Shown here one piece after another: positions 15,063 through 49,591 of a DNA stretch of 64,000 nt. Under the pieces are notes generated by a model. The model made no database searches. It had not been told where the DNA came from and worked only from the letters and a program-made list of their open reading frames with translations. Position 1 is the first letter of the stretch. Every line of letters starts with the position of its first letter. Source of the DNA: Streptomyces sp. HPF1205 (GTDB taxonomy: Bacteria > Actinomycetota > Actinomycetes > Streptomycetales > Streptomycetaceae). Both the position numbers and the translations under genes were made by a program. The stretch is from contig NZ_JAINVH010000002.1 in the NCBI RefSeq assembly GCF_020400825.1, positions 186,001 to 250,000 of the forward strand, given 5' to 3'.

Positions 15063-15094
15063 CCTGTGGATAAATCCCGGGAATTATCCACAGG
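15063..15094. promoter_or_regulatory. Inverted pair of DnaA boxes upstream of parAB
   Basis: An 11-bp inverted repeat (CCTGTGGATAA at 15063 and its complement ending at 15094) holds two DnaA boxes TTATCCACA facing each other, with a 10-bp CCCGGG-centred spacer. It lies 35 bp upstream of the chosen parA start. DnaA binding here could couple parAB transcription to replication initiation; that is inference. Confidence 0.65.
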
Positions 15095-19247: not shown

Positions 19248-21173
19248 GTGGCCGACGTGACTGCCGATCTTGCCGCAGTGTGGCCTCGGGTGCTCCAGAA
19301 GCTGCTGGTGGAGAGCGAGGACCTCAAGCCCAAGGACGCGGAGTGGCTCAAGCGCACCCAGCCGCTGGCCCTGGTGGCCGGCACGGCGGTGCTCTCGGCG
19401 CCCAACGAGTTCGCCAAGAGCGTCCTTGAGGGACGGCTCATGCCGCTGATCACCGACGTGCTCAGCCGTGAGTTCGGTCACCCTGTCGGGATCGCGATCG
19501 CGGTGGCCTCCGGCGGCGACCAGGAGCAGGCTCCCGCGCAGGAGCGGTCGCAGCCGCAGCGCTTCGCCCAGCCCGCGCAGCCGGAGCGCGCCGAGCAGCC
19601 GCAGGACGACGGGCATCCCGGGCAGCAGGCGTTCCCGCACGGCTCGCCGTCCCCGCAGATCCCGCAGCCGCCGCAGGTCCCGCAGCAGGAGTCGTACGAC
19701 ACCGGCGACGCGCCGCGGATGCGGTCCGCGTACGGGGAACGGCAGGACCACCGCGACCCCCAGGATCACCGCGACTCCCAGGACCGGCCCGACTGGCAGC
19801 AGCCGCGGCTCGGGGGCTGGGGGGCGCCGCCGCCGTCACCCGGCTATCCCGACCGCGCGCCGTACGAGAGCCCGCGCGAGGGGTACGAGGGGTCGCACGG
19901 CGGCTACGACTTCCCCACCGTCCCGCACCAGGGGCAGCCCGGCGGCCGGCAGCCGTACGGGTCCCCGGCCGCGGGCTACCAGCCGCCCGCGGGCCCGCCG
20001 TCCCGGCCGGAGCCGCCGTCCTCACCGGGCGCGGGCGGGCCCGGCCCCGGTGCCGGTCCGATCGGCGCGGGCGCGCCCGGCGGCCCCGGGAACGGGTCGG
20101 CCTCCGGGAACGGCTCCGGCAGCGGTGGCGGCAGCGTGGAGCCGACCGCGCGGCTGAACCCGAAGTACCTCTTCGACACCTTCGTCATCGGTGCCTCCAA
20201 CCGCTTCGCGCACGCCGCGGCCGTCGCGGTCGCGGAGGCGCCGGCCAAGGCGTACAACCCGCTGTTCATCTACGGCGAGTCCGGGCTCGGCAAGACCCAC
20301 CTGCTGCACGCCATCGGGCACTACGCCCGCAGCCTCTACCCGGGCACCCGGGTGCGGTACGTGAGCTCGGAGGAGTTCACCAACGAGTTCATCAACTCCA
20401 TCCGGGACGGCAAGGCGGACGCGTTCCGCAAGCGGTACCGGGACATGGACATCCTGCTGGTCGACGACATCCAGTTCCTGGCGCAGAAGGAGTCGACGCA
20501 GGAGGAGTTCTTCCACACCTTCAACACGCTGCACAACGCCAACAAGCAGATCGTTCTGTCCTCGGACCGGCCGCCCAAGCAGCTCATCACCCTGGAGGAC
20601 CGGCTGCGCAACCGGTTCGAGTGGGGCCTGATCACGGACGTGCAGCCGCCCGAGCTGGAGACCCGTATCGCGATCCTGCGCAAGAAGGCGGTGCAGGAGC
20701 AGCTGAACGCGCCGCCCGAGGTGCTCGAGTTCATCGCCTCGCGCATCTCGCGGAACATCCGCGAGCTGGAGGGCGCGCTGATCAGGGTGACCGCCTTCGC
20801 CAGCCTCAACCGGCAGCCGGTGGACCTGCAGCTCACCGAGATCGTGCTGAAGGACCTGATTCCGGGCGGCGAGGACTCCGTGCCCGAGATCAGCGGCAGC
20901 GCCATCATGGCCGAGACCGCCGCGTACTTCGGGCTCAACGTGGACGACCTGTCCGGCTCCTCACGCAGCCGGGTGCTGGTCACGGCCCGGCAGATCGCCA
21001 TGTACCTGTGCCGCGAGCTGACCGACCTGTCGCTGCCCAAGATCGGCGCGCTGTTCGGCGGCCGCGACCACACGACGGTGATGCACGCCGACCGCAAGAT
21101 CCGCTCGCTGATGGCCGAGCGCCGGTCCATCTACAACCAGGTGACCGAGCTCACCAACCGCATCAAGAGCTGA
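19248..21173 (+). CDS. dnaA: Chromosomal replication initiator DnaA
   Basis: An AAA+ ATPase of 641 residues that binds DnaA boxes and opens oriC. Domain I (about 1-85) binds partner proteins. Domain II (about 86-300) is an exceptionally long Gln/Pro/Gly/Asp-rich linker, typical of Streptomyces DnaA. Domain III has Walker [12 protein letters not shown] (K349) and Walker [11 protein letters not shown]. Domain IV ends with the box-binding [15 protein letters not shown]. The GTG start at 19248 has GAGAGAG upstream. It is divergent from rpmH and followed by oriC. DnaA boxes in its promoter suggest negative feedback. Confidence 0.98.
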
Positions 21174-21408: not shown

Positions 21409-21983
21409 TTCTCCACAGGATCGCGGCGATCGCCGTTTCCACACCCTGGGGACATCCGAGTTGTCCCCGTTTTCTCCACAGGCGGCCCTCGTCCCTGATC
21501 ATCCGCCCTGCTCACCGGGGTGTGGATATGTGGGTAACCGGAATCCACAGACTGTGGACCATGCGGGTGCCCACAGAGGCCCCCGGCCGGTTGTCCACAC
21601 GTCACCCACAGGATGGAGCCGGTTGTGCACAGGAGAGGCCGGGTTCTCCACACCTTTGTCCACTGTTCGGCAACGAAATGCCGTCTGTCCCACGGGAGAG
21701 TGAAAGGCATCACACCAAGGCGGTGGGTTGGCCTGGGGAGAACCTGGGTATTTCTGGGGACACACCTGGGGAGAACTCCGGGCTGCCTGTGAATCGCGTG
21801 TGGACAACTTTCGGCTGTCCACAGAGGCAGGTGGTTTTCCACCGCTCCCGTCCACAGGCAGTGTGGATAAAAAACGCGCTCTGACCTGCGCCGGAACCAC
21901 TTATCCACGGTATCCACAACCCCTACTACTACTGCTACGAGTAGAGAGCCCGGAACTCGATTCGAAGTGGGGGCTGTGCACAA
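21409..21983. other. oriC: Origin of chromosomal replication, oriC (DnaA-box array)
   Basis: The 927-bp dnaA-dnaN gap has no gene and carries about 19 DnaA-box-like 9-mers. On the plus strand they start at 21409, 21435 (weak), 21472, 21541, 21591 (perfect TTGTCCACA), 21602 (weak), 21623 (weak), 21644, 21656, 21815, 21848, 21901 and 21910. On the minus strand they start at 21521, 21529, 21553, 21799 (perfect), 21862 and 21975 (weak). They form two groups with a box-poor middle (21665-21798). The only A-run (AAAAAA near 21868) is next to the box at 21862. Streptomyces oriC is known to hold about 19 boxes in two clusters, so the match is close. Confidence 0.95.
21901..21940. promoter_or_regulatory. 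Candidate origin-unwinding element: two DnaA boxes, C-rich spacer, DnaA-trio
   Basis: Boxes TTATCCACG (21901) and GTATCCACA (21910) are followed by the spacer ACCC and then CTA-CTA-CTA-CTG-CTA from 21923 to 21937. Read on the other strand 3'-5' this is GAT-GAT-GAT-GAC-GAT, the DnaA-trio pattern described for the basal unwinding system of B. subtilis and other bacteria. The geometry fits; strand opening here is inferred. Confidence 0.6.
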
Positions 21984-47910: not shown

Positions 47911-47949
47911 GGTGACCGGCCGCGGTGACCGGCCGCGGTGACCGGCCGC
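47911..47949 (+). repeat. Three perfect 13-bp tandem repeats
   Basis: GGTGACCGGCCGC is repeated at 47911, 47924 and 47937 without change, between the cyclophilin stop and the rhomboid start. A partial fourth copy (GGTGGCC) follows. Confidence 0.85.
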
Positions 47950-48057
47950 GGTGGCCCGGGAACGGCGGCGGGGAAGCGGTGGCCGGGCGGGACCGCCCGC
48001 ACCGCGCGCCCGATCCCGTACCCTTCGGTGAACCGTGTCATCTGGGGAGTGGGCGTG

Positions 48058-48909
48058 ATGGAGGACCAGGCGGTCTGCTGCTACCGGCATCCGGACCGGG
48101 AGACCGGCATACGCTGCACCCGCTGCGAGCGGCCGATCTGCCCGGAGTGCATGGTCAGCGCGTCGGTCGGGTTCCAGTGCCCGAGCTGCGTGGGACAGGC
48201 GCACCGGGCCACCCCCCAGCCGCGTACGGTCGCGGGCGGGCGGGTGGCGCGCGACCCGTTCCTGATCACCAAGATCCTCATCGGGCTCAACGTCGCGGTG
48301 TTCATCCTGGTGCGGGTGATCGGCGACCGGGCGGTGAACGACCTGGCGCTGACCGCCCAGTGCGGCATGGACTTCTCCGGCCGGCACGTGTGCATCGGCG
48401 TCGCGGGCGGCGAGTGGTACCGGCTGATCACCTCGGCGTTCCTGCACCAGGAGCCGTTGCACATCGCCTTCAACATGCTGTCGCTGTGGTGGATCGGCGC
48501 CCCGCTGGAGCGGCTGCTCGGCCGTATCCGGTACCTGGCGCTCTACCTGGTCGCCGCGCTCGGCGGCAGCGCCGCGGTGCTGCTGCTGGCCCCGGACACC
48601 TGGACCCTCGGCGCCTCCGGCGCGATCTTCGGGCTGTTCGGCGCCACCGCGGTGTTCATGCGGCGGATGCGCTACGACATGCGCCCGATCCTGATCCTGC
48701 TCGGCCTGAACATCTTCTTCAGCTTCACCTGGGCCAACGTGAGCTGGCAGGGGCACCTGGGCGGACTCGTGGCCGGGACGCTGATCGCCATAGGGATGGC
48801 CTACGCGCCGCGGGAGCGGCGGGAGCTGGTGCAGTGGGGGACGCTGGCCGCGGTGCTCGTGGTCTCGCTGCTCCTGTCCGGGATCGCTGTGGCGCAGGTC
48901 ACGTCCTGA
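48058..48909 (+). CDS. Rhomboid-family intramembrane serine protease with N-terminal zinc finger
   Basis: A membrane protease of 283 residues. Residues 6-45 hold a B-box-like zinc-binding segment (CCYRHPDRETGIRCTRCERPICPECM, then CPSC). Six or seven helices follow. The catalytic Ser is S187 in GASGAIFGLFG, and the catalytic His is H233 in GHLGG. HIAFNMLSLWWIG is the conserved loop. ATG at 48058 follows GGGGAG. Substrates are unknown. It is convergent with crgA across the DnaA-box cluster. Confidence 0.94.
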   Translation: MEDQAVCCYRHPDRETGIRCTRCERPICPECMVSASVGFQCPSCVGQAHRATPQPRTVAGGRVARDPFLITKILIGLNVAVFILVRVIGDRAVNDLALTAQCGMDFSGRHVCIGVAGGEWYRLITSAFLHQEPLHIAFNMLSLWWIGAPLERLLGRIRYLALYLVAALGGSAAVLLLAPDTWTLGASGAIFGLFGATAVFMRRMRYDMRPILILLGLNIFFSFTWANVSWQGHLGGLVAGTLIAIGMAYAPRERRELVQWGTLAAVLVVSLLLSGIAVAQVTS

Positions 48910-49093
48910 CCGCCGTGTCCCGGCCGTTGATCAGACGTTATCCACAGCGTGTAGACAGTCGTTCGCATGGTGTGCCCGGACGGGGGACATGGCGCGGTGC
49001 GGCGCGGAAACCCTGCGAAGAGCGTGCGAAAGCCGGGGAAAAGCTGGGCAAATGCCGCATCTCGACCCTCGTGGACGCGTCGTGACATGGAAA

Positions 49094-49123
49094 GACCGGT
49101 GGCCGATGTCGTGGCCACCGGTC
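49094..49123. terminator. Hairpin in the rhomboid-crgA intergenic region
   Basis: GACCGGTGGCC at 49094 pairs perfectly with GGCCACCGGTC ending at 49123, with an 8-nt loop. It stands between convergent genes and just before the DnaA-box array. Confidence 0.6.
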
Positions 49124-49147
49124 GTACCGGCGTCAACCGCGTAGAGG

Positions 49148-49235
49148 TTATCCACAGATCTTCCGACCTTTTCCCCACTGTGGATAACCATGTGGACAAT
49201 CCTGTGGACAACTGTGTGGACAGCTGTGTGGACAA
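49148..49235. promoter_or_regulatory. DnaA-box cluster outside oriC, five boxes at 12-bp spacing
   Basis: TTATCCACA is on the plus strand at 49148, with another at 48938. On the minus strand boxes start at 49179 (TTATCCACA), 49191, 49203 and 49227 (perfect TTGTCCACA) and 49215 (CTGTCCACA). The starts 49179, 49191, 49203, 49215 and 49227 are each exactly 12 bp apart and in the same orientation. The region (48910-49336) lies between two gene ends, so it is unlikely to be a promoter. DnaA-box clusters outside oriC influence initiation frequency in S. coelicolor, so titration of DnaA is the likely role. Confidence 0.85.
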
Positions 49236-49236
49236 C

Positions 49237-49280
49237 CGTCGGACAGCCGTCGGACAGCCGTCGGTCAGTCGTCGCACGGT
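49237..49280 (+). repeat. 11-bp repeats trailing the DnaA-box array
   Basis: CGTCGGACAGC is at 49237 and 49248, followed by two diverged copies at 49259 and 49270. GGACA recalls the box core TGTGGACA, so these may be decayed boxes with an 11-bp period. Confidence 0.65.
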
Positions 49281-49336
49281 CACCGGACAGCCAAGGCAAC
49301 CGCCGGACGGGCGCGCTCAGGCGTCGTTGCCCGCGG

Positions 49337-49591
49337 TCACTTCCACTGGGTGGAGACGACGAACCCGCCCGCGATGAACCCGAAGCCCACGACGATGTTC
49401 CAGTTGCCGAGGGCGTCGACCGGAAGGCTCCCCTGCGTCACGTAGAAGAGGACGATCCAGGCGAGACCGACGATGAAGAACGCCAGCATCAGCGGTGCCA
49501 CCCAGCCGCGGCTGCCGAGCTTTATGGCCGTGGCGGTCTTCTCCGGTGGCGGGGTGAAGTCGGCCTTCTTGCGGATCCGTGACTTCGGCAC
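49337..49591 (-). CDS. crgA: Cell division protein CrgA
   Basis: A small membrane protein of 84 residues that controls FtsZ-dependent septation in aerial hyphae of Streptomyces and interacts with division proteins in mycobacteria. It starts [20 protein letters not shown], then has two helices (about 30-52 and 64-80) separated by a short [11 protein letters not shown] loop. The family motif and length are exact. It is divergent from the DUF881 gene, sharing an 89-bp promoter region, as in other Streptomyces. Confidence 0.96.

Follow-up and report, generated by a model that had tools for sequence, protein, structure and literature searches.

A putative DnaA-docking element of three boxes beside crgA in Actinomycetes, most likely shared by Streptomyces sp. 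HPF1205 and Mycobacterium tuberculosis

The gap between the convergent rhomboid protease and crgA genes of Streptomyces sp. HPF1205 holds an array of DnaA boxes whose conserved part, judging from the comparisons reported here, is a core of three boxes at 49169 (+), 49179 (-) and 49191 (-), with the run of five evenly spaced boxes being a local extension. The same element is most likely present in M. tuberculosis, in a region to which DnaA binds, and may serve there and here to limit the supply of DnaA to oriC. All positions given are those of the window, which is the whole stretch of 64,000 nucleotides that was analysed. Within the Streptomycetaceae the genome falls into the Actinacidiphila group, its closest named relatives being Actinacidiphila species.

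The gap (48910-49336, 427 bp) separates the 3' ends of the two genes. The original prediction had described five minus-strand boxes phased at exactly 12 bp, as well as plus-strand boxes at 48938 and 49148, and both observations were borne out: direct reading and a pattern search agree on minus-strand starts at 49179, 49191, 49203, 49215 and 49227 (the run spanning 49179-49235), with a step of exactly 12 bp made of a 9-bp box and a 3-bp gap, and both plus-strand boxes read TTATCCACA(+). A weak plus-strand box at 49169, an 11-bp repeat at 49218-49292, and the match to the M. tuberculosis region Rv0010c-Rv0011c, to which DnaA binds, had been missed. The features of the locus, together with oriC, are as follows:

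About 21409..21983, no strand: oriC, lying between dnaA (19248-21173) and dnaN (from about 22020) and containing numerous boxes, both weak and strong
47938..48909 (+): rhomboid protease gene (PF01694)
48938..48946 (+): distal DnaA box TTATCCACA, directly after the rhomboid stop codon
49089..49128, no strand: GC-rich inverted repeat flanked by the distal and facing boxes; possible bidirectional terminator, lacking a T tract
49148..49156 (+): exact DnaA box TTATCCACA, 31 bp ahead of 49179 and facing towards the run; kept throughout Streptomycetaceae
49169..49177 (+): weak DnaA box TTTTCCCCA, first core box, 10 bp before 49179; start of the R1 match; kept at this position in relatives
49179..49187 (-): DnaA box TTATCCACA, second core box and first of the 12-bp run
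49191..49199 (-): DnaA box TTGTCCACA, third core box
49203..49211 (-): DnaA box TTGTCCACA, run extension; weak or lacking in most of the genus
49215..49223 (-): DnaA box CTGTCCACA with one mismatch, run extension
49227..49235 (-): DnaA box TTGTCCACA, run extension
49218..49292, no strand: degenerate 11-bp tandem repeat GGACAGCCGTC, continuing the box array; probably decayed or slipped box copies
49337..49591 (-): crgA (PF06781), the cell-division gene that the element accompanies

The number of boxes in the window is beyond chance, with 34 found at up to one mismatch against 6.9 +/- 3.1 in shuffled sequences, and six of the 73 exact boxes in the entire genome lie inside this one gap. Among the five units of the run, boxes depart from consensus at 2/45 positions and spacers vary at 5/15 (P=0.008, a value that rests on a small sample of five non-independent units), and such lower variation of the boxes favours their upkeep. 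The gap contains no promoter-like match, which agrees with the earlier view that promoter control is unlikely for an array between convergent gene ends, nor does it contain a T-tailed terminator.

The array lies about 27 kb from oriC, and the description of it as a DnaA-box cluster outside oriC is sound, given that several near-consensus boxes fall within a few hundred base pairs of this one gap and that the position is oriC-proximal. The possibility that the array is oriC itself was rejected, as oriC sits between dnaA and dnaN and the array between rhomboid and crgA. On the one contig that this count covers, a uniform spread would place 1.7 of the 73 exact boxes within 100 kb of oriC, whereas 22 lie there, 19 being left after removal of oriC and 13 after removal of both oriC and the gap. 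The distance from crgA to dnaA is about 10-177 kb in complete genomes; because nearness to oriC comes with crgA synteny, it is no separate evidence for the element. The 12-bp step is also present in the presumed oriC, since a same-strand pair of boxes at 21644-21664 has the same step, and this pair recurs in most genomes of the genus.

Other box groups were seen around oriC. Near parB, two exact boxes of diverging orientation lie 19 bp apart (15065-15092). A second cluster, of eight one-mismatch boxes in about 360 bp (L248:2572-2933; G000:C100:121071-121432), is found between pheA-like and seryl-tRNA synthetase genes, about 86 kb from oriC and on the opposite side from the array, and about 36 kb from oriC a MatE gene is preceded by five more boxes (L247:2066-2328; G000:C100:171565-171827). 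This five-box cluster may match a mycobacterial site upstream of dnaB, a gene that lies near the corresponding locus in S. coelicolor. A 2006 study by Smulczyk-Krawczyszyn is said to have described DnaA-box clusters outside oriC in S. coelicolor, namely H69, H24 and D78, placed around oriC much as the clusters seen here. In S. coelicolor crgA is carried on cosmid H69, so that the H69 cluster is probably this locus, and the eight-box cluster possibly corresponds to D78; the deletion effect in that study reportedly concerns D78 and not the crgA locus.

On comparison of the gap across relatives, the 12-bp spacing largely held within the genus, but the number of boxes did not. In 35/35 genus members a distance of 31 bp separates the exact plus-strand box closest to crgA from the 49179-type minus-strand box that follows it, and the next minus-strand box comes after 12 bp in 33 and after 13 bp in the remaining two, all counted from an anchor that allows for a TTGTGCACA palindrome by which boxes can be mis-paired at some loci. 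Most of these 35 genomes carry two boxes at 12 bp; one locus (L100) has three, and another (L096, genome G023) shows four further 12-bp steps when two mismatches are allowed, with spacers that differ from those found here. Among 84 Streptomyces loci, 39 take a 13-bp step and 19 a 12-bp one, and weaker boxes are seen at +25 and +37. A strict five-box, 12-bp array was thus rejected as a conserved feature: by these comparisons the 12-bp step is a habit of the genus and not universal, and what is special to this genome is only the extension to five boxes at even spacing. Most Streptomycetaceae have a counterpart of the distal box at 48938, separated from the facing one by about 115-250 bp, and the gap itself, at 427-433 bp, is longer here than in most relatives (about 250-345 bp), with one other reaching 423 bp.

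Conservation extends well beyond the family. crgA is present in all but two of 158 sampled genomes of the class, and across 80 crgA loci from 32 other families the density of boxes (up to one mismatch) fell from 17.1/kb over the 100 bp directly after crgA to 4.8/kb over the next 100 bp and 0.18/kb at 400-1200 bp (11 boxes in 61.7 kb), and a reversed-motif control gave no rise after crgA in the same loci. The commonest spacings there were 23 and 10 for (+)/(-) pairs and 13 for (-)/(-) pairs, all of which follow from one module, (+)-10-(-)-13-(-), that occurs in either orientation relative to crgA. A symmetric module of four boxes (13-10-13) was considered and discarded, one outer box being usually absent, which leaves three boxes in either orientation. 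In several families (L177, L180, L186, L188, L214, L216) a palindrome like TTACACGCGTGTAA adjoins the core.

We built a covariance model, R1, from a 43-column alignment of 37 sites with Streptomycetaceae excluded from training, in which the letters of the boxes are conserved as well as the base pairing. In untrained genomes whose crgA had been placed, the top genome-wide match of R1 was no more than 500 bp from that gene in 26/26 at E<=1e-5 (not 26 independent events, given the relatedness of the genomes) and in 35/40 at E<=1e-4; because selection on the crgA side affected training loci only, this result is unbiased by the choice of training sites. No match at E<=0.1 was obtained in 20 of the 148 genomes listed. 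The best match both in the window and in the genome is 49169-49199 (23.5 bits), at the left end of the array as originally described. In a phylum sample of 119 genomes, 11 gave R1 matches at E<=0.001, and in two from outside the class (G342, G343) the match lies about 31 bp from CrgA. The 20 CrgA loci outside the class held 32 one-mismatch boxes in the 200 bp that follow crgA, against a single one at 300-600 bp, and 9/20 had two or more, with the fixed three-box geometry less clear than within the class. An early origin of the element within Actinomycetota seems likely on such grounds, if less firmly shown than class-wide conservation. Four genomes of family f45 (G344, G384, G404, G414) gave R1 matches with no detected CrgA, one of them near base 1500 of a complete genome and possibly by oriC.

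In M. tuberculosis crgA is Rv0011c. Genome G199 (family f4) encodes a CrgA matching 2MMU, the CrgA of M. tuberculosis (E 7e-42), and carries the three-box core beside crgA; because this mycobacterium-like CrgA has the core in a place matching the DnaA-bound region, the site described here and the mycobacterial Rv0010c-Rv0011c site are, on sequence grounds, most likely the same element. In M. tuberculosis, DnaA bound five regions by IDAP-seq, Rv0010c-Rv0011c among them, the same five were recovered by ChIP-seq in M. smegmatis, and binding to Rv0010c-Rv0011c was confirmed by gel shift (PMC7738170). Clinical isolates repeatedly carry mutations in that region, located in a palindrome formed by two box-like sequences, and the variants give longer cells, as do dnaA variants that resemble hypomorphs, with no over-initiation reported (PMC7738170). 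The authors saw no obvious correspondence of the region in other species, and considered titration or nucleotide exchange as its possible role (PMC7738170). The two sites share the same side of crgA, nearness to oriC, and a DnaA-box cluster with a palindromic pair; the mycobacterial one, however, has its core reversed relative to crgA, a weaker box sequence, and no five-box run.

The explanation that we rank first, and whose chances we see as evenly balanced, is that this is an oriC-proximal DnaA-docking element that limits the supply of DnaA to oriC, acting mainly as a sink or negative control. The three-box core would bind a facing pair of DnaA molecules and one more in line, and additional in-line boxes, three in this genome, would lengthen the DnaA chain to up to five. 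With DnaA held outside oriC, and the element doubled early in replication, less DnaA would reach oriC, and the extra boxes would make for a larger sink. The boxes, their geometry, their conservation and their position are read from sequence; we infer the filament arrangement at this locus and the sign of the effect on initiation. Because box pairs 2-3 bp apart are a preferred target of E. coli DnaA, which binds them as a dimer, the 12-bp run may be seen as a chain of good pairs (PMC11317965), and to this extent the original suggestion that fixed spacing points to cooperative binding gains support, while titration, the other part of it, is one option only. E. coli double boxes resemble the run in being tandem, 2-3 bp apart and dimer-bound, but are mostly promoters with two boxes, and one extra base pair lowers binding there, although 13 bp is common in Actinomycetes (PMC11317965). 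A sink is also supported by reports that untimely initiation is repressed by the clusters outside oriC of S. coelicolor and B. subtilis (PMC4585315, PMC5742627). E. coli datA is likewise a box cluster near oriC said to limit initiation, but its box geometry differs: neither datA nor E. coli oriC contains a (+)-10/14-(-)-12/13-(-) set with boxes at up to one mismatch, and a datA-like geometry was rejected at that limit. Two points speak against a sink, namely that order and spacing are conserved, although a passive sink needs neither, and that the M. tuberculosis site variants resemble hypomorph-like dnaA variants, yet loss of a sink should free DnaA (PMC7738170).

The same two points are in keeping with the explanation that we rank second, a DARS-like site, in that strict geometry suits a specific DnaA-DnaA complex and that the mycobacterial variants are hypomorph-like (PMC7738170). 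In such a site, DnaA-ADP molecules on the facing pair would meet head to head and lose ADP with the help of a third DnaA, and the apo-DnaA would reload ATP, so that initiation is promoted; we hold this tentatively, as rather unlikely. The mechanism requires head-to-head boxes I and II plus box III (PMC10380432, PMC8682772), and facing I and II with III in line after II is what we found. In the MG1655 record, the cores of E. coli DARS1 and DARS2 have the form (+)-14-(-)-12-(-), their first box falling short of consensus. They share with (+)-10-(-)-12/13-(-) the order of three boxes, the first facing and the others in line, and come close to it in the second spacing. Only that second spacing agrees, however, the pair of values being 10 and 12 here and 10 and 13 in most other families instead of 14 and 12, with the facing boxes separated by 1 bp here versus 5 bp, and DARS is not near oriC. 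In Streptomycetaceae, moreover, it is a weak box that stands at 10 bp, the strong facing one being 31 bp away, orientation relative to crgA varies, and convergence can produce three boxes in such an order. The wider proposal that an element fixed at the crgA 3' end since early Actinomycetota works as a DARS-type reactivator, with the clinically mutated M. tuberculosis site as a member, we regard as more doubtful again.

A third account is compatible with a sink and bears on the three extra boxes (49203-49235), which would have arisen by tandem duplication of the 12-bp unit and be neutral, with only the old core of any importance. This has an appreciable chance, short of even, as the long run is present in few of the 35 genomes, a decayed 11-bp tandem repeat adjoins it, and the gap is longer than in most relatives; on the other hand, boxes are better kept than spacers, the 12-bp run of L096 in G023 has different spacers, which suggests an independent origin with the same step, and the weak Streptomyces boxes at +25 and +37 hold a similar phase. 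It is improbable, in our opinion, that the site acts as a DnaA roadblock or terminator to stop read-through between convergent genes instead of controlling replication. The convergent gap, the strong hairpin at 49089-49128 and the partly palindromic core would fit such a role, but the boxes lie apart from the hairpin, their letters are conserved and not just the base pairing, and expression of Rv0010c and Rv0011c is unchanged in M. tuberculosis dnaA mutants (PMC7738170).

A fixed order of three boxes across 32 other families exceeds, as far as sequence can tell, the needs of a passive sink. The element joins a Streptomyces cluster outside oriC with a patient-mutated DnaA site of M. tuberculosis, the two having until now been treated apart, and its set-spaced core provides a defined DNA substrate, and harmless model species, for the question of titration versus reactivation. 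It would, in addition, be a candidate for control of initiation at the level of DnaA, which is poorly known in Actinomycetota.
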